Shown here one piece after another: positions 43,801 to 61,362 of a DNA stretch of 64,000 bases (the stretch's first letter is position 1; every line of letters starts with the position of its first letter). Both the position numbers and the translations under genes were made by a program. The notes beneath the pieces are model-generated. The model made no database searches. It saw only the letters and a list, made by a program, of their open reading frames with translations, and had not been told where the DNA came from. The stretch comes from Bacteroidales bacterium (lineage in GTDB: Bacteria; Bacteroidota; Bacteroidia; Bacteroidales; WCHB1-69), in the NCBI GenBank assembly GCA_017615795.1, contig JAFZZK010000047.1, positions 1 to 64,000 on the forward strand. The letters run 5' to 3'.

Positions 43801-44782
43801 TCCAGATGCCGCCCTCTGCGGGCAGCGACGCTAACTTGCAGTAGGGCAGGTAGCAGTAGCCGTTGTCGCCAAAAGCATCGCCGAAGGTGTTGCAGAAGAT
43901 GACGGCGCCGATCTCCCAGTCCTTCATGTTCACCACGCCGTCGCCGTTGATGTCAATGTCGTTGGTATATTGCCCGTCGCCGTTGTAGTCCCAGCAGACG
44001 GCGTCGTTGTAGCCGACGATGGTCTGCGAGTGGTTGACGGTGGTGGTGAGGTTGACCACGATGTGCTTACCCGCCTCGGGCGCACCGGGAGGAATCACTG
44101 AAAGACCGGAGTTGCCGTAGTAGGTGCAGTAGTAGTTGGCCAGACCGCCGGAGCTCTCGCCCGCCAGGTGGTCGTATAGCCAGTGCTTGAGCGTCAGCAG
44201 TCCCTCTTCGTCGTCCACGGGGATGGCGTACATCTCCGAGATGCGGTTCTTCATCGCGCTGTGGTAGGTCTCGTACCCGCTGATCCAGCGGCTGGCGCCC
44301 CCCGTACTGAACCATCCGCCCCATTCGTTGACATTGGGCGTGCCGGCGGTACGGATTACCTCCCACGTCTCCATAAAGGCTACCCCGCGACTGCTACCAC
44401 CGTTGCAGAAGTTCCAGGCGAAGTGCGAGGGGTAGTTGTAGTTCATTCCCCATAAAGGGCTCACGTTGCGCCGCCGTGCCAACTCATACGCGAAATTATA
44501 GCAGATGCTGCTGGCCTGGCCGCACTCCAATGCCGCCTGGTAGAATATCGCGGGCATCCACATCCGCTCTGAGTTGTTTACGTAGGAGGGCAGCGGGATG
44601 TTGCGCTCGTCTTGCGACAACTTCAGCCTCGGCACATTGCTGAGTGCGGCCGATTCCAACGCTTCCATAGGGGGTATCGACGCATACAGGCTGTCAATGT
44701 CGTATGCCGTCGGACCTGGTTGCGCGACCGCAAAGGTCGTCAACAAAGCCAGTATGGTGAATAGGGCGGACCTCTTTCTCAT
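40868..44782 (-). CDS. T9SS-exported papain-like cysteine protease with adhesin domains
   Basis: A 1304-residue protein from ATG 44782 (MRKRSALFTILALLTTFAVAQ); the frame is open to 44941 but the extension crosses the promoter and lacks a signal. The catalytic domain has Cys94 in ECGQASSICYNFAYE (Gln of the oxyanion hole in the same motif) and His251 in VNHSQTIVGYND, as in C1 peptidases. A calcium-loop-like DYNGDGQYTNDIDINGDG lies just after it. Then come an Ig-like putative domain (~535-640), two or three beta domains, a MAM/cleaved-adhesin-like jelly roll (ENKYDWLYFFIDGVQ, VWIDDICF) and a type A T9SS sorting domain (LKVYPNPTYGSVTV ... GLPAGIYLLKVEI). It is first in a six-gene probable operon. 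Probably a secreted protein-degrading adhesin. Confidence 0.88.
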   Translation of the reverse strand: MRKRSALFTILALLTTFAVAQPGPTAYDIDSLYASIPPMEALESAALSNVPRLKLSQDERNIPLPSYVNNSERMWMPAIFYQAALECGQASSICYNFAYELARRRNVSPLWGMNYNYPSHFAWNFCNGGSSRGVAFMETWEVIRTAGTPNVNEWGGWFSTGGASRWISGYETYHSAMKNRISEMYAIPVDDEEGLLTLKHWLYDHLAGESSGGLANYYCTYYGNSGLSVIPPGAPEAGKHIVVNLTTTVNHSQTIVGYNDAVCWDYNGDGQYTNDIDINGDGVVNMKDWEIGAVIFCNTFGDAFGDNGYCYLPYCKLASLPAEGGIWNKCVYVVQVKDEVFPQITYKAMIRHSSRGKIKLTAGIANNVNATQPEHTLEFRVFNFQGGDLYMLGDNTDESNKDIELGLDVSPLLNYATPDAPCKFFFNVIEDDPDNASDGQIIGFSLMDYTSGVGDEQVCPNGNVPIANNTTTTLSVVRAIHFTKPEIQDTVLPDMEAFVPYSKTLTATGGKPPYRWEVSRQFEISETNSSYPTESGQAVSLSNTGTGYAIVNLPFEFPYYGDEYDQIVVYADGYIAFHHQPANWPFLQHSDMQTMSIRSICPFKADLTNCSVRKIAGNDMLTLVFSAKISGQTSSSVNFAVTLHASGVIEFQYGDMTFSGSNFWSALLRGDQQVIQHTPVSRQVAANIAHRSFSMTPSILPDCLTLSASGTLSGKSERAFEDATFSLTCYDNNDVETTRRFHISSLYTSRLLMSDLKINNSDNPNLFVGDTMRFTISVLNTDTLAYPNGVLHVRSTDPFVSFIDSTEYFGYIGPGNEYTLNNCVTCVVRRGVPDGHEIPFSIEIANDIASVTTTRAFAVHSYDFSLLHYAILNHGNNTGILHPIELDTLLLTLRNNKGEIHNVDLRLRVPVPEVEVPVATRHLDAIAAEATFELPAILYVTPDYVPGTTFNAYLDIYVNGALADVKTVTILGETVCFDFEDGHVPTQFTGGVSQADWIFDNSSGRACLRSGDISHNDTSTVQIEFTSVQGEHLMFAFRTSSENKYDWLYFFIDGVQQGRWSGVHNWTDVHYPVEAGSHNASWKYIKDYNTSSNEDHVWIDDICFAEFDNPTFELDVHPESVEITMGVSAHVTDSAVVTLGSPFNGIILFNNVLEDEEGHTPLWITCAPANDFIDANGQQQIVLHFNSYGCAENDHHATLHIRHTGGEQLVPVTMHVSSVGIPTVEQSRELKVYPNPTYGSVTVQHESTLIERVTVTDLYGRTVAIIPVNDYQGNLNLSGLPAGIYLLKVEIENGDTITSKLLKY

Positions 44783-44809
44783 ATTTTTTATGCTAAATAA
44801 ATAAAACCG

Positions 44810-44817
44810 CAAACATA
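44810..44817 (-). promoter_or_regulatory. Minus-7 box for the cysteine-protease operon
   Basis: TATGTTTG on the minus strand, 28 bases before ATG 44782. It is the likely start of the operon running to 31901. Confidence 0.6.
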
Positions 44818-44841
44818 CAAAAAAAACACAATCGCTACCCA

Positions 44842-46152
44842 TCAACTGTTGGCGGATGTGGACGAGACACTCTCCAACTTTCTGACGCCCAGGTGCATCA
44901 GCAATCCCCTCAATACGAGGAATAGCAGGAAAGCTATCCACAATCCGTTGTTACCCAGCGTGTTGTGCAAAGCGTAGTAGGCGGCGAAAAAGGCGGCGGT
45001 GGCCACAAACATCACGTTGCGCATCGCCTTGGAGGCAGTCGCTCCGATGTAGATGCCATCGTAAATGAAGGCTGCGAATCCCGCAAATGGTACCATCACC
45101 GTCCAGATGATGTACTCCATGGCCTTGTCGATGACCTCCACTTTGTTGGTGAGGATGCTGAGCAGCCCGCGTCCGCAGAGGGCATACAACACGGTGAACA
45201 TTGCCGCCAGTCCTGTCCCCCATAAGAGCAGCAGTCGGATGACCCGGCGCAGGGATGGGTTGTCCTGAGCCCCCACGTAGCGTCCCACCAACGACTCGCC
45301 GGCGTAGGCGAAGCCGTCCATGATGTACGACAGCAGTGTGAAGAGCTGCATCAGCAGCGTGTTGGCGGCCAGCACCTCATCGCCCATTTCGGCGGAGATG
45401 TAGGGGATGAAGGTGAACACGGCGATGAGACAGAGCGTCCGGAGGAAGATGTCGGCATTGATCTTGAAGAAGCGTATCATCTCGTTGATTTTCAGGCTTT
45501 CACGGATGTGGATGTCGTGACGCATCTTTCCGTATTTGTAGAACCAGATCACTACGGCCATGGATAGTCCCATGTATTGAGCGATTACTGTGCCCCACGC
45601 CACGCCTGCGATGCCGTAGTGCAGTACAAAGACAAACACCAGGCTGCCGACGATGTTGACGAGATTCAGGATGATGGCGATCCACATGGGGGCTTTGGCG
45701 TTCTGCATGCCGATGAACCATCCCTTGAGGACATAAAGGCCCAACGTGGCAGGAGCTGCCCAAATGCGGATGTGGAAGTAAACCATCGTAAGGTCAAGGG
45801 TCTCTTGGCTGGAGTGAATCCAACGGCGGCATAGGAAATCAATGGGCTGCTGCAGTGCGATGAGCAGGACGGCGGCACTTAGCGCTATGGCCATGCCTCG
45901 CACCAAAATGCGCAGGCATTCGGCACGGTCTTCCGCTCCGTAGGCCTGTGCCGTCAAGCCGCTGGTTCCCATCCGCAGGAATCCGAAGTTCCAGTAGACC
46001 AGATTGAAGATCATGGTGGCCAAGGCGATGGCGGCGATGTAACTGGCCTGGCCGATGTGTCCCACAATGGCAACGTCCACCATCCCCAAAAGAGGCACGG
46101 TTATGTTGGTGATGATGCTCGGTATGGCGAGGCGTAAAATCTGCTTGTTCAA
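44842..46152 (-). CDS. MATE-family efflux transporter
   Basis: A 436-residue membrane protein with twelve hydrophobic segments in two halves. It begins NKQILRLAIPSIITNITVPLLGMVDVAIVGHIG, typical of the DinF-like branch, and has GTSGLTAQAYGAED. It exports drugs or metabolites using Na+ or H+. It has its own promoter, divergent from that of yqgE. It ends 60 bases before the start of the protease gene on the same strand. Confidence 0.92.
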   Translation of the reverse strand: MNKQILRLAIPSIITNITVPLLGMVDVAIVGHIGQASYIAAIALATMIFNLVYWNFGFLRMGTSGLTAQAYGAEDRAECLRILVRGMAIALSAAVLLIALQQPIDFLCRRWIHSSQETLDLTMVYFHIRIWAAPATLGLYVLKGWFIGMQNAKAPMWIAIILNLVNIVGSLVFVFVLHYGIAGVAWGTVIAQYMGLSMAVVIWFYKYGKMRHDIHIRESLKINEMIRFFKINADIFLRTLCLIAVFTFIPYISAEMGDEVLAANTLLMQLFTLLSYIMDGFAYAGESLVGRYVGAQDNPSLRRVIRLLLLWGTGLAAMFTVLYALCGRGLLSILTNKVEVIDKAMEYIIWTVMVPFAGFAAFIYDGIYIGATASKAMRNVMFVATAAFFAAYYALHNTLGNNGLWIAFLLFLVLRGLLMHLGVRKLESVSSTSANS

Positions 46153-49351: not shown

Positions 49352-49570
49352 ATGGCAGCATATCCACATGTCGGAAGAATGATAAAGTCGCAACTGAAAG
49401 CGCAAGGCCGCAGTGCTGTTTGGCTGGCAGCACAGCTCAATTATGGCACGGACAATATTTACAAGATCCTGCAGCGGGACCATTTGTCCACGGATGTACT
49501 GTGGAAAGTGTGTCTGGTTTTGGACCACGACTTTTTCAAAGAGATTTCCCGGTGTATCTCAACCGAGTGA
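49352..49570 (+). CDS. Small helix-turn-helix protein
   Basis: A 72-residue protein, MAAYPHVGRMIKSQLKAQGRSAVWLAAQLNYGTDNIYKILQRDHLSTDVLWKVCLVL, predicted all-helical. SAVWLAAQLNYGTDNIYKIL fits the helix-turn-helix of XRE/Cro-like repressors. ATG 49352 is preferred over 49328 because homology-like sequence begins there. A possible promoter (TTTTG 49261, TACTCTTTG 49291) precedes it. It lies just upstream of the kinase/FHA cluster on the same strand with a separate promoter between, so it could regulate that cluster; this is inference. Confidence 0.65.
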   Translation: MAAYPHVGRMIKSQLKAQGRSAVWLAAQLNYGTDNIYKILQRDHLSTDVLWKVCLVLDHDFFKEISRCISTE

Positions 49571-49755: not shown

Positions 49756-50871
49756 ATGATTAGATGTGAAAATTGTGGCTGGAGCAATAATCCAGACGGA
49801 AGTACCACTTGTCAAAAATGTGACAGCCCTCTGATGAGAGCTTCTGGGTCTAATCCCAACGAAAAAGCGGCTCAAGAAGAAAAGGTTGAGCCCAAACCCA
49901 ACAGACCTTTGCGTCAGACCATACGCGACATCCTGAAGGACCCATCCCAAAGGGATGCAGACAATCCTGTCAATGAAAGTCGTATGACGCAGAGAATTGG
50001 TAAAGTAGAGGAACCTGCCTCTGCGGAAAAGGAGGTTTCCGCACCCAAGTCCGAACCCAAGGCGGAGGAGCAGCCCAAGGAGAAGGAAGCCTCAGCTCCC
50101 CAAGCAGCGGTGTGCCCTTCATGCGGATACCCTCTGCGTCCGGGCAGCCTAACATGCCCCAAGTGCAACACCTCTGTTGCCGCACGCACCATACATGACA
50201 AACCCTCTCCTCTGAAGGGAACCGTCATAGAAGTTCCCCCAACTGCAGAAAAAGAGACAGCCTCGGCACAGAAGAATACCGTTTATGAAGGCAACAACCC
50301 TCAAAAGGGCACTTTCTTCCAGGGTAAAGACCCTCAGAAAGGCACTCGTTATGAAGGTGCTAACCCACAAAAAGCCACCCGTTATGAAGGTGTCAATCCG
50401 TTGAGGGCGACGCGCCGCGAGGGACAGTTTCCTCAGAAAGGCACAATCAATGAGCATATTGACGAATCCCGTGAACCGGTGAAGACCCCGAATCCGTCGC
50501 CCGCCGAGCCGAAGGCTGCCGAGGTTGTGAGCAAGGGTACGGTTTTCCCCAGTCATCTGTCGGATGATGAGCCGCAAAAGGGAAAATCCATCCGCATGAC
50601 AGCCGTGAATGTCGGGGAACGTTCCGATTTTGCTCCCATAGACCTGGAGTTTTCGGATAAAGAGGTCGTCCTCAACAGGGGCAATGTCGCTCCCAACGAC
50701 CTCACGATCTCCCGTTCCGCGCAGGCCCTGCTCACCTGTGAGGATGGACATTGGTATCTGGAAAACAAAAGTCGCCTGTTGACCACCTCGTTGGTCCTGG
50801 ACAAAAAACATGAGCTTCAGGATGGTGACATTGTGATCATTGGGGACAAAATGTTCAGAATCGGCTTCTAA
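49756..50871 (+). CDS. Zinc-ribbon protein with 11-residue threonine repeats and FHA domain
   Basis: A 371-residue cytoplasmic protein. Residues 1-26 are a zinc ribbon (CENCGWSNNPDGSTTCQKC), a charged low-complexity linker follows, and a second zinc ribbon lies at ~118-140 (CPSCGYPLRPGSLTCPKC). Residues 175-235 hold six 11-residue repeats of the form T-x-x-E/Q-G-x-x-P-Q-K-G. Residues ~280-371 have the FHA pattern (NDLTISRSAQALL, WYLENKS, ELQDGDIVIIGDKMFRIGF), although the usual Gly-Arg is replaced by NRGN. I infer an adaptor that is phosphorylated on the repeats and bound by FHA domains of the neighbouring proteins. The kinase gene starts four bases after its stop. Confidence 0.8.
   Translation: MIRCENCGWSNNPDGSTTCQKCDSPLMRASGSNPNEKAAQEEKVEPKPNRPLRQTIRDILKDPSQRDADNPVNESRMTQRIGKVEEPASAEKEVSAPKSEPKAEEQPKEKEASAPQAAVCPSCGYPLRPGSLTCPKCNTSVAARTIHDKPSPLKGTVIEVPPTAEKETASAQKNTVYEGNNPQKGTFFQGKDPQKGTRYEGANPQKATRYEGVNPLRATRREGQFPQKGTINEHIDESREPVKTPNPSPAEPKAAEVVSKGTVFPSHLSDDEPQKGKSIRMTAVNVGERSDFAPIDLEFSDKEVVLNRGNVAPNDLTISRSAQALLTCEDGHWYLENKSRLLTTSLVLDKKHELQDGDIVIIGDKMFRIGF
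50278..50454 (+). repeat. 33-bp coding repeat: threonine every 11 residues
   Basis: Threonine codons occur at 50278, 50311, 50344, 50377, 50410 and 50443, that is T175, T186, T197, T208, T219 and T230, each followed by two residues, then Glu or Gln, then Gly, and most preceded by Lys-Gly or Lys-Ala. The DNA is diverged between units, so the spacing is kept by selection on protein rather than by recent copying. Confidence 0.85.
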
Positions 50872-50875
50872 GGTT

Positions 50876-52168
50876 ATGTCAACAGTTGTAAAGCGTTGTG
50901 ATTTCAAGATAGACGACGTCATACAGGGAAGGTATGTCGTTCAAAAAGTGCTGGGTGAAGGTACATTCGGAAAGGTGTACAAGGTCACGGACAGGCACGA
51001 CCCTTCGAAACCGGTGGCTTTCAAGCTGCTGAAATTGTGGGAAGTGCCCCCGACCATCCGCGAGGAACTCCAGCAGCGTTTCCAGATGGAGTTCGAGACG
51101 GGACGCATTGACAGCCCTTACTTGGTCCGTTCCATGGATTATGGCATCGAAGGCGGCAATCCTTTCTTCGTCATGGAGTTCTGTCCTAACGGAGACATCA
51201 GCAAGTTTATACCTTCCTCTCCTGTGGATGTGATTTCGGACGAGAAGCTGTGCGACATTTTCAGCAACGTGCTTTTAGGCTTGCGTATGCTGCACAGTTG
51301 CGGCAAAGTGCATCGCGACTTGAAACCCGAGAACGTTTTGCTCAAGGAGAACGATTTTGCCGTGCTGACCGATTTCGGCATCTGTGGCGACCGCAACAAC
51401 CGGATGACGGAGCGCAACATCCTGGGCAAGCCCATGCAGATGTTCGGCACCTACGCTTACATGCCGCCCGAGCAGCTGCGGCGCGTGAGGGGCAACGCCA
51501 CCGTGCTTCCCACCACGGACATCTTCTCGTTCGGCGTTTTGGTCTACCAGCTTATCACGGGCCGACTTCCTTTCGGCAGCATGGAGGACCAGAACCAGCT
51601 GGTGATGTATCAGAAAAACGCCACCGCGGGGCAATGGGACCGCACCCAGCTCAACCGCTACGGTGTCCACCCTCGCTGGCGCGAAATTGTCGAGGGCTGC
51701 CTTGTGCCTGACTACAAGGAGCGCTTCCAAAGTGTGGACGAATGTCTTAAATGCATTCCCCATGCACACCATTCATATTTGCAGAATGTCGCGGCATCCC
51801 ATCATGGCAATGGACGCCGCCTGCGCGTGATGCAGGGTGAGGAATACGGCAAAATCTATGACCTGGGTAACCTGCTGATGAGTCACGGCTCCATGCTCTC
51901 CGTGGGGTGCAGACCGGAAAACGACATTCACATTCGCGAAGAACACACGTTTGTCATTTCCCGCCGCCATTGTACCTTGGAAACGGAAGATGACGGACGC
52001 ACATGGTATGTGCGCGACGGACAGTGGATTGCGGACAAGCGCGAATGGTGCCGTTCCACCAACGGCACGTTCCTGAACTCTGCCGAGGTTACACCAGACG
52101 GCCTGGAATTGTCGCCGGGTGACATCTTGACCATCGGCGATGCAAAACTTAGATACGAAACTTTTTAA
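50876..52168 (+). CDS. Eukaryotic-type Ser/Thr kinase with C-terminal FHA domain
   Basis: A 430-residue soluble protein from ATG 50876 (a longer frame from 50840 overlaps the upstream gene). The kinase domain covers ~15-285: glycine loop GEGTFGKVY (27-35), Lys50 in VAFKLL, HRDLKPEN with D148 and N153, DFG at 166-168, and GTYAYMPPEQ as the P+1/APE region. It is an RD kinase with all catalytic residues. Residues ~325-430 form an FHA domain (VGCRPENDIHI, ISRRHC, TNGTFLN, LELSPGDILTIGDAKLRYETF) with the pThr-binding Arg and Ser. No membrane segment is present. Confidence 0.93.
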   Translation: MSTVVKRCDFKIDDVIQGRYVVQKVLGEGTFGKVYKVTDRHDPSKPVAFKLLKLWEVPPTIREELQQRFQMEFETGRIDSPYLVRSMDYGIEGGNPFFVMEFCPNGDISKFIPSSPVDVISDEKLCDIFSNVLLGLRMLHSCGKVHRDLKPENVLLKENDFAVLTDFGICGDRNNRMTERNILGKPMQMFGTYAYMPPEQLRRVRGNATVLPTTDIFSFGVLVYQLITGRLPFGSMEDQNQLVMYQKNATAGQWDRTQLNRYGVHPRWREIVEGCLVPDYKERFQSVDECLKCIPHAHHSYLQNVAASHHGNGRRLRVMQGEEYGKIYDLGNLLMSHGSMLSVGCRPENDIHIREEHTFVISRRHCTLETEDDGRTWYVRDGQWIADKREWCRSTNGTFLNSAEVTPDGLELSPGDILTIGDAKLRYETF

Positions 52169-52217
52169 AATAGAAAACACAGTTAACTTTATTATTAATT
52201 ATTAAAACAACAATGCT

Positions 52218-53732
52218 ATGAGTAAAACAGACTCCTTTAAGTCCTCCTTCGGCGGCACCGTCGGTTCTGGTATGAAATCTGTATTCAACCCGTCCGGCAA
52301 GCGGTTCTATATTTTGGAACACCGCAATGATTCGCAATATCATCGTGCGGGCGAAGCCCAGAACATCATCGTGGATGAGGCCACCATCGGTCGTGACCCC
52401 AAGTGCACGGTCCGCTTCGATGAAGACTTCAACACGGTGAGCCGCATGCATGCCGCCATCCGCCACGAGGGCGAAAATTATGTGCTGTATCACTTGTCAA
52501 AGACCAACCCCACGCTCGTGAATGGTTCTCCGATACAAAGCACGTATTACCTCAAGAACGGTGATGAAATCCAGCTTTCCTCCAACGGACCGCGCCTCGG
52601 CTTCATCATCCCCCAAGGCGAACAGTCCCTCGTGAAGAGCCTCGGCCTCACCGCTCGTCTCAACCTTTTCCGCAAACAGGCCCTGCGTCCCTATAAAACC
52701 GCACTGTCCATCCTTTGCGCCCTCCTCGCGCTCGCTATCGCCGGTGGTGTTATCTACGGCGTCCATAGCAACAAGAAAATCAAGGAACTTACCCTCTTGT
52801 CCGACCAACTGAAACAACATCAGGATTCCCTGTTGCTCGAACAGGCTCGTATCCAGAGTATTCTGGACTCCATGGACAGAGTTGAGCCTAACGTCGTGCA
52901 TGTCTGGCACAATGGTGCTGTGGTCGATGCGAAAAAGCTCAAAGACGAAATGGAATCCGGCATCGCCCCGGAATACATCACCTCACTTGACCAGGTCAAG
53001 AGCAGCGTATGCTATGTTGAGACAACCGTTATGGCGGATGTCGAAGGCGAACCGATCGAGGTCGGCAAAGTGTCGGGCAGCGGTTTCCTCCTCACTGACG
53101 GCACCTTCATCACCGCACGTCACATGGTCACGCCGTGGCTCTATCCCTCCAGCATCCTTGACCTCTTCATGAACTCCAAGGCTTCCAACGACGAGGTGTT
53201 CCTCTATTCCAAGGTTAAAGTGTTCTACGGCAACAAGAGCTTCACCCTCAATAGCAACGACTTCAAGATGGATGTCAGCAAGGATGTGAAATGGACGGAC
53301 GGCGATGGTACAGTCCTCAATGTCGCCTTCCCCATGAACAGCGAGCATAACAAGAAGGCCATGAGCACCGACTGGGCTGCAGCTGCCACCCGTTACAAAG
53401 GCAACATCCAAATCGATGCTGCCGCATCCATGTCTCCTGTCAGCGGCCAAGATGTGTACATCATGGGCTTCCCCGGCGGACTGGGCTACAAGGACAGTGA
53501 GGATGTCGAGAACATTGTCAATCCGATCTACAACCAGACCACAATTGCCCGCCAGGGTCTCAACGATGCCGACTGCATCACCATCTCCAACACGGTTGAC
53601 CACGGCAATTCCGGCGGTCCTGCCTTCATCATCCGCGATGGCAAGCTGTATGCCATTGGCATCGTCTCGCGTATCGACAAGGATTCGCAGAAATATGCTC
53701 ACATCGTTCCTATCAAGAACGTTGTACGTTAA
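52218..53732 (+). CDS. Membrane protein: cytoplasmic FHA domain, periplasmic trypsin-like protease
   Basis: A 504-residue protein. An FHA domain lies at ~30-130 (IGRDPKCTVRF, VSRMHAAI, KTNPTLVNG, LKNGDEIQL). A single membrane helix follows at ~160-182, a coiled coil at ~185-222 (IKELTLLSDQLKQHQDSLLLEQARI), and an S1-type protease domain at ~255-504. The His302 region is FITARHMV, and the serine is S465 in DHGNSGGPAF. An aspartate for the triad is probable between them (D363 or D385) but not assigned. The design suggests that phosphothreonine binding inside the cell is transmitted to a periplasmic protease. I do not know a described system of this kind. Confidence 0.85.
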   Translation: MSKTDSFKSSFGGTVGSGMKSVFNPSGKRFYILEHRNDSQYHRAGEAQNIIVDEATIGRDPKCTVRFDEDFNTVSRMHAAIRHEGENYVLYHLSKTNPTLVNGSPIQSTYYLKNGDEIQLSSNGPRLGFIIPQGEQSLVKSLGLTARLNLFRKQALRPYKTALSILCALLALAIAGGVIYGVHSNKKIKELTLLSDQLKQHQDSLLLEQARIQSILDSMDRVEPNVVHVWHNGAVVDAKKLKDEMESGIAPEYITSLDQVKSSVCYVETTVMADVEGEPIEVGKVSGSGFLLTDGTFITARHMVTPWLYPSSILDLFMNSKASNDEVFLYSKVKVFYGNKSFTLNSNDFKMDVSKDVKWTDGDGTVLNVAFPMNSEHNKKAMSTDWAAAATRYKGNIQIDAAASMSPVSGQDVYIMGFPGGLGYKDSEDVENIVNPIYNQTTIARQGLNDADCITISNTVDHGNSGGPAFIIRDGKLYAIGIVSRIDKDSQKYAHIVPIKNVVR

Positions 53733-53793
53733 TTGGAACAAGCTGTTCGAATGCCAATTTCTTTAAATTATTAAGTATTAAATATATTAAAGT

Positions 53794-55233
53794 ATGAGTG
53801 ACATAACGATATGTCTCACCGCCGCCACTGACGTGGGCGTATATCGCAAGAATAACGAAGACAACTTCATCGTATGCCCCGATGTCAGTGTCGACAACTG
53901 GACCATACCCCAAGACCCTAACGGAGTTATTCCGTTGGGGTCTCGGGGCAGTCTTATAGTTGTCGCCGACGGCATGGGTGGGATGAATGCCGGCGAGGTT
54001 GCATCCGACATTGCCGTGCATACAGTCAAGGATTGTTTTGCACCGGACAAGGTTACCCCGGAGGATTTCGCAAATCCAGCCGCCGCCTGCAAGTTTATGA
54101 AGCAGGTGATTTTGGAGGCTGACAACCGTATCAAGAAACATGCCAAAAAGCATTCCGACACCAGTGGCATGGGCACCACCATCGTGATGGCCTGGCTGTT
54201 GGACAACACGGCGTGCGTGGCATGGTGCGGTGACAGCCGGGCTTATGCCTTCCACCCGGAAACCGGCCTGCGTCAGCTGTCGAAGGACCACTCATACGTG
54301 CAGTCGCTGGTCGACTCCGGCCAGCTCCTGCCGGAATTGGCATTCGATCATCCTGACAGCAACATCATAACTTCGAGTCTTGGCGACTTCGTCAACTCCG
54401 CATCGCCCGACAGTGTGGTCACATATCTCCACAACGGAGAGATGCTGCTGCTTTGCAGCGATGGATTGTGCGGCATGATCCGCGACAATGAGACGGAGCA
54501 GATCCTCCAGCACACGCACGAGGATCTCGACGCCTGCCGTCAGGCCCTGATTCAGGGCGCGCTCAATGCGGGCGGCCACGACAATGTGACCATTGCCCTG
54601 CTCAAGGTGCTGTCGGGCGCTCCCGACCTGCCGCCTGTCACCAACACCCCGACCCGCACGCTCTCACCCACGGAGATTGAGCAAGAAAAGCAAGAAATTC
54701 AGGCAGCGGAAGAGGGTTCCGACCTCAACGAGTTGGTGCAGCCTGTCGTCGAACCGAAGGTCGCCAACGACCTCGACGCCAAGGCCAAGGCCAAGGTCGA
54801 AGAGCTGAAGAAAAGCAAGAAAAAAGGACGCAAGTTCTTCTGGACCCTCTTCATCCTCCTGCTCTTGGCGGGCGGCCTCTACCTCTTGTGGCGCTTCGTG
54901 CCGGGTATGCCGTTCCAACCCAAACAAGGCGAGGAGATTGACTCAACCCAGATCGTGAATGTTGACACCATAAAACCAACGCCACCTTCACCAGAGGTGC
55001 CACCTGTCGCAGCTCCAGAGACTCCCAAAACGGAGCCTGTTACCGCTCCTGAGCCGCAGAAACCGCAAACCACAACTCCGAAAACCACTTCTCCTCCAGC
55101 AGCCAACCCCATTGACAAGATCATCGAAAAGCAGCAGGCAAAAACAGCGACTGCAACCGAGTCGTCTGATAAGCCGCAGACCGATGCAGACGCTTCGGGC
55201 GAGGCACCGGAATCCACTTCGGAAGAGGAGTAG
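53794..55233 (+). CDS. Membrane-anchored PP2C-type Ser/Thr phosphatase
   Basis: A 479-residue protein. The phosphatase domain (1-~275) has the metal ligands and motifs of the PPM family: TDVGVYRKNNEDNF, VVADGMGGMNAGEVAS, SGMGTTIVMAWL, VAWCGDSRAY, LLLCSDGLCGMI and AGGHDNVTIALLK. A basic stretch and one membrane helix (~348-371) follow, then a ~105-residue Pro/Thr/Glu-rich tail (PSPEVPPVAAPETPKTEP) that should be periplasmic. It would oppose the two kinases of the cluster. Confidence 0.93.
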   Translation: MSDITICLTAATDVGVYRKNNEDNFIVCPDVSVDNWTIPQDPNGVIPLGSRGSLIVVADGMGGMNAGEVASDIAVHTVKDCFAPDKVTPEDFANPAAACKFMKQVILEADNRIKKHAKKHSDTSGMGTTIVMAWLLDNTACVAWCGDSRAYAFHPETGLRQLSKDHSYVQSLVDSGQLLPELAFDHPDSNIITSSLGDFVNSASPDSVVTYLHNGEMLLLCSDGLCGMIRDNETEQILQHTHEDLDACRQALIQGALNAGGHDNVTIALLKVLSGAPDLPPVTNTPTRTLSPTEIEQEKQEIQAAEEGSDLNELVQPVVEPKVANDLDAKAKAKVEELKKSKKKGRKFFWTLFILLLLAGGLYLLWRFVPGMPFQPKQGEEIDSTQIVNVDTIKPTPPSPEVPPVAAPETPKTEPVTAPEPQKPQTTTPKTTSPPAANPIDKIIEKQQAKTATATESSDKPQTDADASGEAPESTSEEE

Positions 55234-55272
55234 TTTAGAGTTTATAAGTACAACAAGAAAAAAGAAACAGAT

Positions 55273-56673
55273 ATGTTGACAGAAAATAGCATGTTTGCCG
55301 GACGTTACCGGTTGTTGAAGAAAATTGGCGGCGGCGGTTTCTCCGTCGTATGGAAAGCCATTGACACGATGGCTGGCAATTTGATTGTCGCCATTAAAAT
55401 CTATGTGCCTGACAATGGCATGGACGAGGAGGGCTTGCGCATCTTCCGGGATGAGTTCTCCTTGGTGTTCGCGCTGAACCATACGAATTTGTTGCGTCCT
55501 ACCTACTATGACATTTGTGACGACTCTCCGTACCTGGTGCTGCCCTTCTGCGACAGGGGCAGTGCGGAGCGTCTGATCAACCCCGAACGGCCGCTGCCTG
55601 AAAAGGCTGTGGTGGAGTTTATCCGCGACGTCGCGGCGGCCTTGGCATACCTGCACAGTCAGGAACCGCCCATCATCCATCAAGACATCAAGCCGGGCAA
55701 CGTGCTTTTGGCCAACGATGGCTCCTACAAGGTCACCGACTTCGGCATCAGCACCCGTATGCGCAGCACGTTGCGCAAGACGGTGGGCGCCTCGGAGATG
55801 GACAAGCTCTCCAAAAGCAATGGCAGCGGATCCATCCCCTATATGGGACCGGAACGCTTCTCCGCCTCGCCCACGCCGGTCAAGGCCAGCGATGTCTGGG
55901 CTCTCGGTGCCGCCGCTTTCGAGATTATGACCGGTGACGTGCCGTTCGACGAGATGTTTGGCGGAAGCCTCCAGAAAAACGGCGCTGATGTGCCGGTAAT
56001 CCCCGGCAGCTATTCCAAGGGACTCAAGAAGTTAGTCTACAAGTGTCTCGCCAAGGAGACTTGGGACCGTCCCACTGCCGCCCGCATCGAACAGTGCTGC
56101 AACGAATACCTCGAAACGGGCAAATGGCGCCTTCACCTGCTCGACCCGCCCGTCGTATGGCAGCGCTATCGCAGAAAAGTAATCGCCATCATTGCCGTCA
56201 CTATCCCGCTGTTGCTCGGCATTGCTTTCTTCTCCTTTGAGCACCACAAGGCCTCAAAACTCGTCTCCAAAGTGGAGAACTACTCTGTCTCGGCCCAACA
56301 GCATTTGGACGGAAGCCTCATGGACATCGACCGCGCACGGCGTTCCTCCATCATGGATTGCGAGAACATGGGATTGGAGAAATCCTTGTGTACTCACATC
56401 GACACGCTCAACATGATATGCAAGAATCTCCAAGCGATTTCCTCGAACTGGACTTTCAGGCATTTCGTGGACGAGGAGAAAAGAGTCCAGCCCAACAAGA
56501 TTCTTTCCGGCATTGTCATTGCTTTGGACGACCAATATGATATCTCGATGGAAATACGTGAAAAGAATATCGAGGACGGTTTCCCCACGGATGTTGCCAC
56601 CATGCTCATCAACACACTGCGCAATTTCAGCTACCTGTCGAAGAATCAGGGCGTGAAACAGGAAATAAAATGA
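55273..56673 (+). CDS. Membrane-anchored eukaryotic-type Ser/Thr kinase (non-RD)
   Basis: A 466-residue protein. The kinase domain is at ~10-285: IGGGGFSVVW, Lys42 in VAIKIY, HQDIKPGN with D138 and N143, DFG from D156, and PYMGPERF. The residue before the catalytic Asp is Gln rather than Arg (HQD), so activation-loop phosphorylation is probably not required. A single membrane helix (302-322) is followed by a ~140-residue periplasmic domain of mostly helices with no family I recognise, which could sense a signal. Confidence 0.9.
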   Translation: MLTENSMFAGRYRLLKKIGGGGFSVVWKAIDTMAGNLIVAIKIYVPDNGMDEEGLRIFRDEFSLVFALNHTNLLRPTYYDICDDSPYLVLPFCDRGSAERLINPERPLPEKAVVEFIRDVAAALAYLHSQEPPIIHQDIKPGNVLLANDGSYKVTDFGISTRMRSTLRKTVGASEMDKLSKSNGSGSIPYMGPERFSASPTPVKASDVWALGAAAFEIMTGDVPFDEMFGGSLQKNGADVPVIPGSYSKGLKKLVYKCLAKETWDRPTAARIEQCCNEYLETGKWRLHLLDPPVVWQRYRRKVIAIIAVTIPLLLGIAFFSFEHHKASKLVSKVENYSVSAQQHLDGSLMDIDRARRSSIMDCENMGLEKSLCTHIDTLNMICKNLQAISSNWTFRHFVDEEKRVQPNKILSGIVIALDDQYDISMEIREKNIEDGFPTDVATMLINTLRNFSYLSKNQGVKQEIK

Positions 56674-56680
56674 TAAATTG

Positions 56681-58402
56681 ATGCGAGACAAGTCAACCCG
56701 AGTTAAAGTCCTTGTTTTCACTGTGGTGTCGTTGCTCATGGCTACGACGGCGTTTGCGCAGTGCATGGCCCCTCGTGAACAGAGGGGCGACGGCTTCGCG
56801 AAGGCGCACAAGTACGATCAGGCCATCAGCGACTATGCCAACGCCTTGACTTGCCCGGAACTGACCACCGCCGACAAGACTCGACTCAACAAGAAAATCC
56901 AAAACTGCAAGGCTCTCAAGGAAAAGGATAAAAAGGACAAGGAGAACAGGGAAAAGCTTGCGCAGGCCAAGAACGGGACGGCGGTCCCGCAGCAGGACGC
57001 TACGGAAGGCCAGGCCGTTGACAACGAGGTGGCAGACACAGAAGAGGATGCATTGGACACTCTGATCGGGAAAGAGGAGATCGACCCCTACCAGCTGCTC
57101 CGCGAACTGCATGAGAAATGGAAGAAGACCGCTTACATGGGAAGTATCCAAGTCACCATCGAGGGGCAGTGCCCGGACGGTTCGAAGCTGCTCAACGAAG
57201 AGATGGACTACGTGGTGCCCAAAGTCTTCTATGCGCCCCTCGACCCCGACTCCGTCCATGACGTGACGTTGGATGTCTGTATATTGTACAAGGGTAAAAT
57301 CGTTGTCCGCCGGGATTGCCAGGTGGAGGTGAAGCCCGTGTCGGGCGACTTCATCATCAAGGACCTGCAGTGGTCGCCGGAATACGAGCCGGGCAGCTAC
57401 ACCTTCCAGATTATGAATGAGGGAATCCCCATCTATATGGGCGAGTTCATTGTCCAACAAAAGAAAATCAAATTGGTTGTCAACACGGTCGATGCGGCGT
57501 ATGTGGACACCTTGCACCGGATTGTGGTCAACAACGGCGACACGGTGCTGACGTTCACAGTCGAGACCAACGCTCCTTACACGGTGACATTGCCTGACTG
57601 GTGCATGCTGAAGCAAAAGAAGGGCGACATGTTCGAGGTTGAGGTGTTGCGGAACACGGCCAAGGATGCGCGCATCGGCACCGGTTCCGTGACGGCTTCG
57701 TCGCGCAACAAGAACAACTTCAAGACCATTTCGTTCGACATCCAGCAGGCTGGCACGCAGTACAGTTTCGATGTCAAAAACAAAACGACTGCCATTTCAC
57801 GGATCATGAAGGCCCGGGGCGGCAACATCTCTTTGTTGGCGCACACCGACGCCCCTTCCTGCCGCATAGAGGGAGCCGCCGCGTGGTGTACCGGTGTGGT
57901 GAGCCACGACAAGTACAACTTGAATCTTCAGATCCATGTCAACACCAACAAGAGCGCCCGGGCAAGAAACCATACGCTCTATGCGGTTGTCTACGACGGT
58001 GTCGACAAGGCTATCGACACCATCCCAATCCAGATACGCCAGCGTGGAAACATCCCCATTTTGGAATCCATCTTCATTCCGGGTGCGGGCCTGATCAGCA
58101 AGGGCCGCAACGGTCTTGGCGGCGTCATTCTCTTCGGCGAAATCCTTTCGGGTGGAGTCGCCCTCGCCAACCATTTCATCTGCGACTTTTCCAAGAACAG
58201 CAACAGGACGAATTTCTTCACCCGGAACGAAGCCACCATCCGCGCCGCCTCCCTCGGCACGTGCATAGGCATCTATGTGCTGAATCTGGTGCTTACGCCG
58301 ACGTTGAAGGCCAAAGAGAACTATGACATCAGTTTTTATCCAGCGGTGCAGCCCTCCATGGGGCAGGCAACCCTCTCTCTGGGGTTCTCCTGCCGGTTTT
58401 AA
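56681..58402 (+). CDS. Periplasmic/membrane protein with TPR-like region and BACON-like domains (copy 1)
   Basis: A 573-residue protein from ATG 56681. The signal peptide (VVSLLMATTAFAQ) is followed by a TPR-like helix pair (CMAPREQRGDGFAKAHKYDQAISDYANAL), a charged linker to ~125, a beta domain (~145-265), and two BACON-like domains (VETNAPYTVTLPDWCMLKQKKGDMFEVEVL; HTDAPSCRIEGAAAWC). The C-terminus has membrane segments with SIFIPGAGLISKGRNGLGGVILFGEI, the PGxG...G...G pattern of DUF5683-like proteins, and ends in a beta strand (LSLGFSCRF). It starts eight bases after the kinase stop and is co-transcribed. A ligand-binding or structural role is inferred. Confidence 0.8.
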   Translation: MRDKSTRVKVLVFTVVSLLMATTAFAQCMAPREQRGDGFAKAHKYDQAISDYANALTCPELTTADKTRLNKKIQNCKALKEKDKKDKENREKLAQAKNGTAVPQQDATEGQAVDNEVADTEEDALDTLIGKEEIDPYQLLRELHEKWKKTAYMGSIQVTIEGQCPDGSKLLNEEMDYVVPKVFYAPLDPDSVHDVTLDVCILYKGKIVVRRDCQVEVKPVSGDFIIKDLQWSPEYEPGSYTFQIMNEGIPIYMGEFIVQQKKIKLVVNTVDAAYVDTLHRIVVNNGDTVLTFTVETNAPYTVTLPDWCMLKQKKGDMFEVEVLRNTAKDARIGTGSVTASSRNKNNFKTISFDIQQAGTQYSFDVKNKTTAISRIMKARGGNISLLAHTDAPSCRIEGAAAWCTGVVSHDKYNLNLQIHVNTNKSARARNHTLYAVVYDGVDKAIDTIPIQIRQRGNIPILESIFIPGAGLISKGRNGLGGVILFGEILSGGVALANHFICDFSKNSNRTNFFTRNEATIRAASLGTCIGIYVLNLVLTPTLKAKENYDISFYPAVQPSMGQATLSLGFSCRF

Positions 58403-58432
58403 TAGTTCGTCTCAAAAGAAGTTAGTTAGCTT

Positions 58433-60040
58433 ATGAGAAAAATACTTGCCTTAATCTGCCTTGTGATCCTTCCATGCATGCTTTGGGCACAATGCTTCAC
58501 CCCCCGAGAGCAAAGGGGGGACTCTTTTTATGCGGAAAAAGATTACAAGAGCGCGAAAGAATGGTATGAACGAGCCAAGAACTGCATGGACCTGACGAAC
58601 AGCGACAAGTCGCGCCTGAACGGTAAAATTGCGAAATGCAACAAGCTTATCAACAAGCCAGAATCCGACGACACACCGACGAAGACGCCTGCCAAACCCG
58701 AAACCGAGTGGGTCAAGACCGCTTATATGCAGGATCCGGAAATCAGCCTCGAGTTCTATAAAGACGGGGATAAACTGCAATCCCCTGCGCAGGATATGGA
58801 CTATTTTGTCCCGGTTGTGCGGTATGTGCCCAAAGACACCGTCAAGGACCATGTGGCGAACCTGCGCCTGCGCGTCTGGCAGGGCACCGATGTGAGCCGA
58901 CGCCCCAAGTCGGACGTAAACCTCGATTGTCAGGTGCTGCATGACAAGCGGGAAACGAGATTGGAACAGCAGAAATGGAGTTATGGCACCGGCAACTTCA
59001 CCATTGAGATTACGAACCGCTACAACAACACAACCCTCTTCAAGGACGTCATAGAGGTCCTCGAAAAAACCATCAGTCTCCAAGTGAACACCACCAGCGG
59101 AACACCGGCTGAAAACTTGCTGCTTGGGAAAGGGGCTCCGACGAAGGTGTATCGCTACATGGTTTCCACCAATGCCGAGAGTTTCCAGGCAGTTTCCACT
59201 GCCCCGGACTGGTGCAAGATTGAAAATATAACCGGAAACAGTTTTGATGTCCGTGTGATAGAAAACAACGGTCGCAATGTGCGAACCGCCGACTGTCGTG
59301 TGACGGCCGGTGACAAGGCCGTCTCCTTCACCGTGACGCAGGAGGGCAAGTCCTTCTTCCTGACGGTGGACGGCTTTTCCACGCGAATGCCGGATCAGTC
59401 CTGCCGCGCCCGAGGTGGCCGGCTGACATTCCCCGTCAAGTCCAATGCCCGTTGGACAGTACAAGGTGACACCCGCTGGTGCCATTGGAACACAGTGTTG
59501 AGCAATGACTCCCTGCTGGTGCTTGATGTGGATCCCAACAACAAGGCATCCAAGCGTTCATCTCAGATACAGGTGGTGGCAATGGACGGCAATGGGGTAG
59601 AAGTCGACAAGCTCGCCATGAACATTGTGCAGACTGGCGACCTCGCGCTGCTGAAATCCATCTTCATCCCGGGTTTGGGCCAGATGGGCAAAGGGCAAGT
59701 GGGCAAGGGTGCCGTCATCCTTACGGGCGAGGTGCTTTTTGCCGGCACGGCCCTCATCACTTACGCTTCGGGCAAATCGAAGCTGAAACAGATGAACAAT
59801 AGCATCGAAACCGGCAATTACGATGATTTTATGCGTGCCAGCAAGAACTACAAGAGCTTGCGTGCCGCCAACTATACTTTCTGGAGCTTGGCAGGAGCAC
59901 TGTACGTCTACAATTTTGTGGACGCCATTGTCTCCAAGGGAAAACCGAACTACAAGAGTTCCAAAATCTCTTTTGCCCCAGTCGCCGCCCCGACGCTGGA
60001 AGGGCCTGTGTTCTCGATGGGGTTCAATTTTAAATTCTGA
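58433..60040 (+). CDS. Periplasmic/membrane protein with TPR-like region and BACON-like domains (copy 2)
   Basis: A 535-residue paralogue of the gene before it. Shared landmarks are the signal peptide ending in AQC, TPREQRGDSFYAEKDYKSAKEWYERAKNC, WVKTAYMQDPEI (WKKTAYMGSIQV in copy 1), a BACON-like domain with STAPDWCKIENITGNSFDVRVIENN, a second with NARWTVQGDTRWC, and SIFIPGLGQMGKGQVGKGAVILTGEVL before two membrane segments. It lacks the long linker of copy 1. A tandem duplication is the simplest explanation. Confidence 0.85.
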   Translation: MRKILALICLVILPCMLWAQCFTPREQRGDSFYAEKDYKSAKEWYERAKNCMDLTNSDKSRLNGKIAKCNKLINKPESDDTPTKTPAKPETEWVKTAYMQDPEISLEFYKDGDKLQSPAQDMDYFVPVVRYVPKDTVKDHVANLRLRVWQGTDVSRRPKSDVNLDCQVLHDKRETRLEQQKWSYGTGNFTIEITNRYNNTTLFKDVIEVLEKTISLQVNTTSGTPAENLLLGKGAPTKVYRYMVSTNAESFQAVSTAPDWCKIENITGNSFDVRVIENNGRNVRTADCRVTAGDKAVSFTVTQEGKSFFLTVDGFSTRMPDQSCRARGGRLTFPVKSNARWTVQGDTRWCHWNTVLSNDSLLVLDVDPNNKASKRSSQIQVVAMDGNGVEVDKLAMNIVQTGDLALLKSIFIPGLGQMGKGQVGKGAVILTGEVLFAGTALITYASGKSKLKQMNNSIETGNYDDFMRASKNYKSLRAANYTFWSLAGALYVYNFVDAIVSKGKPNYKSSKISFAPVAAPTLEGPVFSMGFNFKF

Positions 60041-60042
60041 CT

Positions 60043-61362
60043 ATGAAATACAAAGCCATACTCATACTGACCGCGCTTGCGTTTATTCTCCCGACGGGTT
60101 GTCTCAAGAAACTCGAGAAGGAGGGCATTTTTAGTGATACCTTGGTGTTCGGGACCGTCACTGTCAACGATGACGACCATACTCCGGCTTCAAATGTGGT
60201 GGTCTCCCTGGTGGATGGCGAGAACACGGTCCGTTCCACTACCACCGACGCGCTCGGTTATTACGAATTATCCGTCTCTGCCGATGAAGTCCATAAGGGC
60301 TTCACCTTCAAACTTACAGCCGACTCGGTGTATCAGGACGCCGTGTTCTCCTTGGAGGAGGTGGGCTTCGGCTTGGAGCGATACGAGCTCAACATGTCGC
60401 TTGACGGCCCTTCGGTACCGCATGTGCAGACGCTTGGGGTAACCAATATCACGGGCCAGACGGCGCTCGCCAAGGGCGTGGTTACGGATAACGGGAACCT
60501 GCCCCTCCAGTCACGCGGTTTTTGCTGGAGCCGTTTGCCCAATCCAACCGTTAACGACGCCCATGTGAACGTGCCGGGTGGGGTGGGTGAATATACGGCC
60601 ACCCTCGTGGGGCTTGAGCCTGCCATCACCTATTATGTACGCGCCTACGCCTCCAACAGCCAGGGCCTCGTGTATGGCGAAGAGCTGTCGTTTACCACGG
60701 AGGGTGTGTTCCACTGCGGCACCTCCTTGGTCTATGACTTTGACGGCAACTCCTACAATACCTTGCAGATCGGCAACCAGTGCTGGACTCGCGAGAGCAT
60801 GCGCACCACCCATTATTCCGACGGAACGGCAATTCCGGTGGGCACCACCAGCGGCGACACCCCTTACCGCTATGCTCCCGGCAACGAGGAGACCAACGTA
60901 TCCATATATGGCTATCTCTACAATTGGCCTGCCACGATGCATGGCGCAGGCTCAAGCCCGTCGGGCGTGCAGGGCGTATGTCCCTCTGGTTGGCATGTGC
61001 CTTCCGATGCCGAGTGGACCCAGCTGACCAACACCGTTGCGGCACTGGGCTACACGTGCAATGGCGTCGCGGCTAATACCGCCAAGGCCTTGGCCTCCAC
61101 ATGGGGGTGGAATTCCAGCACGGTGACCTGTGCCGTTGGCAACGACCTCTCTGACAATAACGCCACCCAGTTCTCGGCACTGCCAGCCGGATTCTACTCC
61201 GGAAACATCAGCAGTATGGGTGGCTATGTCTATTTCTGGACGGCAACCGAAAGCGGTGGATCCACGAGCAACAGCCGTCTTTTCAAGAACGACAAGGCGA
61301 CCGTTGACATCAGGTCGAATGACAAGACCTGCGGCTTCCTCGTGCGCTGCGTGCTTGATTGA
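60043..61362 (+). CDS. FISUMP lipoprotein
   Basis: A 439-residue protein, two bases after the second BACON gene. The signal sequence ends FILPTGC; the minus-3 residue is not classical, but a lipoprotein is likely. Order: carboxypeptidase-regulatory-like domain (FGTVTVNDDDHTPASNVVVSLVDGE, YYELSV), an Fn3-like unit (ALAKGVVTDNGNLPLQSRGFCWSRLPNP, YYVRAYASNSQG), and a FISUMP domain (YDFDGNSYNTLQIGNQCWTRESMRTTHYSDGT ... FLVRCVLD). It may be the outer-surface component of the kinase cluster. Confidence 0.85.
   Translation: MKYKAILILTALAFILPTGCLKKLEKEGIFSDTLVFGTVTVNDDDHTPASNVVVSLVDGENTVRSTTTDALGYYELSVSADEVHKGFTFKLTADSVYQDAVFSLEEVGFGLERYELNMSLDGPSVPHVQTLGVTNITGQTALAKGVVTDNGNLPLQSRGFCWSRLPNPTVNDAHVNVPGGVGEYTATLVGLEPAITYYVRAYASNSQGLVYGEELSFTTEGVFHCGTSLVYDFDGNSYNTLQIGNQCWTRESMRTTHYSDGTAIPVGTTSGDTPYRYAPGNEETNVSIYGYLYNWPATMHGAGSSPSGVQGVCPSGWHVPSDAEWTQLTNTVAALGYTCNGVAANTAKALASTWGWNSSTVTCAVGNDLSDNNATQFSALPAGFYSGNISSMGGYVYFWTATESGGSTSNSRLFKNDKATVDIRSNDKTCGFLVRCVLD

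Follow-up and report, generated by a model that had tools for sequence, protein, structure and literature searches.

The window analysed here, 64,000 nucleotides of the forward strand of contig JAFZZK010000047.1 (assembly GCA_017615795.1, from a Bacteroidales bacterium of the lineage WCHB1-69), carries a run of genes for kinases, FHA-domain proteins, a phosphatase and a protease, and the question raised by this locus is whether they make up one signalling pathway and what such a pathway would control. We propose, with moderate confidence, that five adjacent genes, A to E (positions 49756-56673), constitute a self-contained phosphothreonine circuit at the inner membrane, in which phosphorylation in the cytoplasm would control the periplasmic protease C, so that the signal would run from the inside out. 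The pairing of kinases with substrates and of FHA domains with ligands, the topology of C and the gating of its protease are what we infer from sequence. Genes are lettered A to J along the + strand, whereas loci of relatives carry L numbers and genomes G numbers; the five genes of the module are as follows.

Gene A, 49756-50871, + strand: a protein of 371 amino acids with two zinc ribbons, a threonine-rich linker and a C-terminal FHA-like domain.
Gene B, 50876-52168, + strand: an RD Ser/Thr kinase with an FHA domain at the C-terminus.
Gene C, 52218-53732, + strand: an N-terminal FHA domain, one membrane helix and a trypsin-like protease domain.
Gene D, 53794-55233, + strand: a PP2C phosphatase that has a single membrane helix and a Pro/Thr-rich tail.
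Gene E, 55273-56673, + strand: a Ser/Thr kinase of the non-RD type (HQD) that has a single membrane helix followed by a C-terminal region.

An earlier note on this DNA had assigned domains to these genes from visible motifs, and Pfam bears it out for four of them: B is an RD kinase with an FHA domain (Pkinase, 147 bits; FHA, 52 bits), C a single-pass FHA-protease (FHA, 59 bits; Trypsin_2, 37 bits), D a membrane PP2C phosphatase (PP2C_2, 55 bits) and E a non-RD membrane kinase (Pkinase, 144 bits). By hydropathy, on which all topology calls rest, C, D and E are single-helix proteins, whereas A and B lack a membrane helix; the helix of C, at about 52698-52754, lies between the FHA and the protease domain. 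The description of A as a zinc-ribbon/FHA protein holds in part, as there are two zinc ribbons (Cys 4/7/19/22 and Cys 120/123/134/137) and the window's FHA-like domain does not reach the Pfam cut-off (13.9 versus 20.7 bits).

Evidence for a common pathway comes from the gene neighbourhood. The note had named a lasting neighbourhood of the genes and conservation of the FHA and kinase residues as the test of its idea, and A to E came through it: the residues are nearly invariant, and in 32 of the 33 loci found outside the window (in 32 genomes) C is accompanied by A, B and D, all on one strand. The only miss is L034, whose contig ends after D, and chance neighbourhood is rejected by these counts. 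E is present in 29 of the 33 loci, and 28 of them also carry, beside C, a gene for a further protein, X, which is absent from the window and from G003 and escaped the earlier note. Thirteen family genomes besides that of the window were first picked by a strong match to E, and two Chitinophagales contigs are also in the sample; the 17 loci chosen on C alone are thus a less biased subset, and in it A, B and D occur in 17/17, E in 13/17 and X in 13/17. The gene order along transcription permutes, with A-B-C-X-D-E, C-X-D-A-B-E and D-A-B-C-X-E all found, which suggests that selection may act on proximity rather than that an operon has been frozen.

The 33 loci do not include L039 and L041 (E-only fragments of G103, which do count among the 39 E proteins below), L052-L054 (other kinase clusters, from the E search) or L064 (an extra FHA paralogue of G436), and the hit genomes G008 and G1112, both fragments, were left out. 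L063, in which C is cut by a stop, was counted for gene content and not for residues, and the 30 B proteins compared exclude L058 (split), L067 (missed in gene picking) and L070 (cut by a contig end). Close pairs among the loci are the window and L036, L034 and L035, L037 and L038, and L042 and L043.

The circuit also appears to be closed. Across the window's assembly (2.04 Mb, 87% complete) the Pfam matches number two for Pkinase, two for FHA and one for PP2C_2, all of them at this locus, so that A to E apparently account for the whole circuit within the assembly; with these counts a closed pathway becomes likelier than it could look to the earlier note. A tally of the 30 other genomes with the system gives a similar result for 23, where every Pfam FHA match lies on the contig or contigs of the system.

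The residues expected of such a circuit are in place. The catalytic residues of B are kept in 30/30 proteins, as are the Gly, Ser, His and Asn-Gly of its FHA domain; the FHA Arg was left out of the column count, as in the window's B an additional residue separates it from the Gly. E keeps Lys, Glu, His, Asp, Asn and DFG in 39/39 proteins and is consistently of the non-RD type, with the Gln of HQD in 36/39 and the Glu of GPE in 38/39. The residue after DFG is Ile in 39/39 E proteins and Ile or Thr in 29/30 B proteins, and beta-branched residues at this position favour Thr as the target (PMC3898841). The metal-binding acidic residues of D are kept in 33/33 proteins. In the FHA domain of C, G58, R59, S75, H78 and N97 are kept in 34/34 and R76 in 33/34 domains, a set that includes the window and the extra paralogue L064; by profile this domain is closest to GarA, with OdhI and EmbR also among the matches. 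The catalytic triad of C, H302-D385-S465, is kept in 32/33 proteins, and the linker between FHA and protease is poorly conserved. In L050 (6704-9218) the C orthologue has lost both the His and the Ser of the triad, and it is followed by a second, protease-like gene that matches the protease half only; the two are possibly a pair of pseudoenzyme and enzyme.

Unlike the kinase domain of E, the region past its helix is variable among relatives: Sel1, FGE-sulfatase, carboxypeptidase-regulatory, ankyrin, MORN, TPR and WG domains were found there in seven of ten proteins scanned, and no further domain in the other three. E is also multiplied in places: L037 has it in three copies, and G103 gives seven strong matches. 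Threonine motifs recur just before the helices of both D (TQ[IVM]LRKK) and E (GRxT) in several relatives.

The likely substrate of B and E is A. Three of its features matter here.

Candidate phosphothreonine array of A, 50215-50454, + strand: T156 and T175/186/197/208/219/230.
Conserved threonine motif of A, K-G-T262-V-F-P, 50533-50550, + strand: precedes the FHA-like domain.
FHA-like domain of A, 50659-50865, + strand: in the window it retains the Arg but not the His and the Asn-Gly.

The stretch from the second zinc ribbon to the FHA-like domain holds ten [KR]xT sites (T156, 168, 175, 186, 197, 208, 219, 230, 262 and 282). Six of these, T175 to T230, stand at an exact spacing of 11 residues, five of them fitting [KR]-x-T-x-x-E and T186 having Gln at +3, and a 33-base DNA repeat lies within this stretch at 50330-50392. 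Altogether six sites, namely T156 and five in the array (whose copies are not independent of each other), match [KR]xTxx[ED], as against 0.26 expected in shuffles, where the maximum was three in 5000. In some relatives A has arrays built of different units, e.g. KKTERF and KKTMVI. The site that is shared more widely is the T262 motif: the alignment of 32 A proteins has one threonine column that is at least 90% conserved, and T[VIMYQ]x[PIVLF], a motif chosen after viewing the sequences and with linker ends set by rule or by hand, occurs in 30/32 of them versus 8.9 expected from shuffled linkers. FHA domains require phosphothreonine, and the ligand classes pTxx[ILV] and pTxx[ED] have been described (PMC8786283); the Pro at +3 of T262 in the window fits neither of these two classes as given in that source.

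The FHA-like domain of A matches the FHA domain of C (hhalign, 67%), and A of many relatives exceeds the Pfam cut-off for FHA. The best solved relatives of A by profile are archaeal ArnA (PDB 5a8i) and 8s05; a profile of 14 A proteins matches 5a8i with an E value of 7.2e-13 in two aligned stretches, which cover both its zinc ribbon and its FHA domain, so that A has an ArnA-like architecture. The array, the conserved threonine motif and the relation to ArnA had all gone unnoticed by the earlier note.

As we picture the circuit, E would probably sense an envelope signal through the lineage-variable region past its helix, and E and the soluble kinase B would phosphorylate threonines of A, namely the T262-type site and, in this lineage, the 11-residue K-x-T-x-x-E array; the juxtamembrane threonines of D and E in relatives may be sites too. 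These phosphothreonines would be bound by the FHA domains of B, giving positive feedback, and of C, and would be removed by the membrane PP2C phosphatase D. Either clustering or a change of conformation at the FHA end of C would then be relayed through the single helix to the periplasmic trypsin-like domain, for which candidate substrates are X in most relatives and envelope proteins such as those of the downstream genes F and G. Whether the number of tandem threonine sites sets a threshold is a question that the array raises.

Several points weigh against this proposal. With regard to the closed circuit, the remaining 13% of the assembly, or kinase and phosphatase families outside the search, could open it, and 7/30 system genomes do have further FHA proteins elsewhere (G016, G057, G103, G213, G129, G118 and G240). 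The patchy distribution described below fits an accessory function. The loss of catalytic residues in L050 indicates that proteolysis by C is apparently not needed everywhere, and E of the module loci L040 and L055 has several hydrophobic segments each by hydropathy. As to the phosphorylation sites, beta-branched residues after DFG are common in bacterial kinases, the linker of E in the window is free of the threonine motifs that certain other E proteins carry, and the FHA-like domain of A in the window has lost canonical residues, as noted above. The T262-type motif, selected post hoc, has no match in two of the 32 A proteins (L040 and L057). The array, with its interdependent copies, is lineage-specific; in the [KR]xT shuffle test only longer A linkers show an excess, and those of L035, L037, L038, L040, L045, L056-L063 and others do not.

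Of the readings that compete with gating of C from the cytoplasm, one concerns the protease itself and strikes us as unlikely: the FHA domain of C would tether an always-active enzyme to phosphorylated A or E at some place on the membrane, phosphorylation setting where it cuts and not whether it does. Such a role would suit a protein whose FHA domain and protease are separated by one helix and a linker of low conservation, and there is a precedent in PknB-FhaA, where an FHA domain docks on juxtamembrane phosphothreonine of a kinase (cited in PMC12077195). The conservation of both halves of C, however, fits gating equally well, and nothing here separates the two.

Still less probable, in our view, is a signal running from the outside in, where C or E would respond to envelope damage, the FHA and kinase side would signal inward and C would be the regulated protease of E or X, after the manner of known regulated-proteolysis pathways. 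The region of E past the helix does vary as in sensors, with domains in seven of the ten scanned, and X stands with C in 28/33 loci, but the module genes showed no conserved transcription factor, which leaves A, with its zinc ribbons, as the only candidate output. Finally, we give very little credence to a conflict or antiphage module like KKP, in which unbalanced kinases would be toxic and the PP2C phosphatase the antidote: two kinases, one with FHA, plus PP2C, a patchy distribution and the known occurrence of KKP in Bacteroidetes (PMC11341870) would agree with it, but a cold-shock domain is missing, the gene order differs, a membrane protease and a zinc-ribbon protein are foreign to KKP, PADLOC gave only generic kinase and weak protease matches, on which grounds a defence system was rejected, and C has no match in phage or plasmid records, a search that had no positive control.

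Cytoplasmic control of protease C thus remains the reading that we prefer, and its lineage history can be followed to some extent. At E values up to 1e-20 a profile of C finds 15/104 family, 12/393 order, 7/395 class and 3/395 phylum genomes, counts that include the window's own genome each time and that may be low at the order, class and phylum levels, where genomes were sampled and mostly three candidates were scored per genome. A search with E matched 64 of the 104 family genomes at E values up to 1e-3. In a tree of 30 B proteins the window and G003 form a group (100/100) with two genomes from a different genus of the same family, and other loci of the window's genus stand apart from the window, grouping with two more genomes from that second genus. 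L060, whose genome belongs to the same order, falls inside a group of genomes that do not belong to that order (100/99); support for pairing it with L035 is only 83/45. Two lineages of the module thus coexist in both genera, which fits either transfer or an old duplication followed by loss. Origin from a plasmid or phage was rejected on the above-mentioned search with C.

The genes that follow the module had been drawn into the same pathway by the earlier note, and they are the following.

Gene F, 56681-58402, + strand: signal-peptide-like start, a sub-threshold BACON_2 match and two C-terminal hydrophobic segments; paralogue of G; accessory.
Gene G, 58433-60040, + strand: BACON, signal-peptide-like start and a weak DUF5683 match toward the C-terminus; accessory.
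Gene H, 60043-61362, + strand: FISUMP protein with an N terminus that looks lipoprotein-like by eye; the family is not specific to the locus.
Gene I, 61423-64092 (the window ends at 64000), + strand: collagen-like surface protein.
Gene J, 64195-75330 (contig end), in the same-strand run: at least 3712 amino acids, with FISUMP, FN3 and collagen-like stretches.

All eight genes of the earlier note, A to H, were found on the + strand at the positions given, with gaps of 4, 49, 61, 39, 7, 30 and 2 bases, if B and F are taken to begin at ATG codons (50876 and 56681, respectively) that lie shortly after the TTG codons listed as their starts. The same-strand run continues past H with I and J, both surface-type proteins. 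Upstream of A, on the same strand, there is a small open reading frame (49355-49570) that by eye has a helix-turn-helix look and is without a Pfam match. The FISUMP call for H is confirmed (119 bits in Pfam); of the two BACON-like paralogues, G is solid (37.5 bits) and F stays sub-threshold (BACON_2, 16.3 versus 25 bits).

Of the claim that all eight genes form one pathway, the part on A to E stands, given their neighbourhood, their residues and the whole-assembly counts, while F and G turn out to be optional and H not specific. FISUMP (PF09603) has 42 matches in the window's genome (G000), many of them in multi-domain giants and 12 on the window's own contig; it is an expanded surface protein family there, and H was rejected as a specific partner on these numbers. 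Around the loci 90 accessory genes were listed, of which 26 were scanned with Pfam. Among those scanned, BACON occurs in L051, L055, L056 and L063, with L049 narrowly missing the cut-off (24.9 versus 25 bits), FISUMP occurs in L037, L038 and L045, and unrelated genes are found as well, e.g. for ABC transporters and a methyltransferase. F and G thus appear to belong to a recurring but optional class of envelope protein, and the idea that the pathway controls surface proteins has found no direct support. Another large protein of the window (40868-44941) bears a type IX secretion C-terminal sorting domain (Por_Secre_tail).

X forms a family of about 250-420 amino acids with a start that is signal-peptide-like by eye (e.g. 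L042, 8793-9824); it has no PDB match at E values up to 1, and three X proteins scanned gave no Pfam match. We do not claim that X is a dead trypsin-like relative of C, hhalign giving 3.0%, 3.0% and 1.6%. Other lineages have pairs of a MotA/ExbB-type and a coiled-coil gene (L034, L035, L040, L057, L058, L066, L067, L069 and L071), identified by their resemblance to the pairs in L034, L057 and L066. They stand beside C, e.g. in L034 (6676-8582, a Chitinophagales locus, with a gene of MotA/TolQ/ExbB type), L035, L069 and L071, and only in L034 is a vWA domain in the coiled-coil gene confirmed by Pfam; such pairs are possibly proton-channel partners of the module.

We found no description of the module among the papers listed by searches of an open-access library that omits most subscription journals and all bioRxiv preprints. 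We put forward, more tentatively than the circuit itself, that it may be an undescribed, horizontally moving system of Bacteroidota, in which interchangeable non-RD receptor kinases would mark a zinc-ribbon scaffold at tandem sites and so toggle a periplasmic protease through one helix. Because what is apparently the whole circuit (two kinases, two FHA readers and one phosphatase) sits in five adjacent genes, it could be rebuilt and tested in a single strain.

Among known systems, the cluster would fall within Hanks-type kinase/PP2C/FHA signalling, its catalytic and phosphothreonine-binding residues being intact (the FHA Arg of B unscored). The threonine phosphorylation pathway of the type VI secretion system (PpkA, PppA, Fha and TssL) resembles it in having a kinase and an FHA protein. 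There the FHA protein reads phosphothreonine on an inner-membrane protein (PMC3953482). Here, in contrast, one protein joins an FHA domain to a protease by way of a membrane helix, and the absence of type VI secretion and Ter genes reported earlier is upheld, VipA and TerD having 0 matches each across the assembly, with one marker family for each system and the assembly 87% complete. For the Ter-associated TerY-type triad one would expect the genome to encode TerD-type proteins and the cluster a vWA protein, and A to I have no vWA match in Pfam. MarP is likewise a membrane-anchored trypsin-like protease, with a weak match to C (NF033740, 31.2 bits versus a cut-off of 250), but it has several helices and is not known to carry an FHA domain.

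PASTA kinase/Stp1 pairs (StkP, PknB), together with FhaA, share with the module a membrane kinase, a PP2C phosphatase and an FHA reader, which in their case reads juxtamembrane phosphothreonine (PMC12077195). D narrowly misses the Stp1/IreP family (NF033484, 211.4 bits versus 230), whereas matches to the Stk1 PASTA-kinase family (NF033483) reach 137.6 and 146.3 bits against a cut-off of 450; no PASTA match is found here, and E is non-RD with other regions past the helix. KKP modules (PfkA, PfkB and PfpC) consist of two kinases, one with a C-terminal FHA domain, and PP2C (PMC11341870), to which B with its C-terminal FHA (52.1 bits), the second kinase E and D correspond. They differ in that B and E have no cold-shock domain among their Pfam matches, in the order A-B-C-D-E, where the kinases flank C and D instead of being adjacent after PP2C, in the additional zinc-ribbon protein and protease, and in the membrane helices of D and E.

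The Sulfolobus Arn network offers a likeness for A, as ArnA also combines an N-terminal zinc ribbon with a C-terminal FHA domain. A kinase (ArnC) and a phosphatase (PP2A) act there on threonines read by FHA, and the FHA domain of ArnA binds phosphothreonine of ArnB (PMC12852372). The window's cluster differs in having no vWA protein such as ArnB, the Arn network has no protease and its output is archaeal motility, and ArnA is a reader, whereas A is also a candidate substrate. The bacterial phosphothreonine pathways compared here target the cytoplasm, division or secretion; if our proposal is true, a phosphothreonine reader fused to a periplasmic protease would provide a defined route from cytoplasmic phosphorylation to proteolysis in the envelope.

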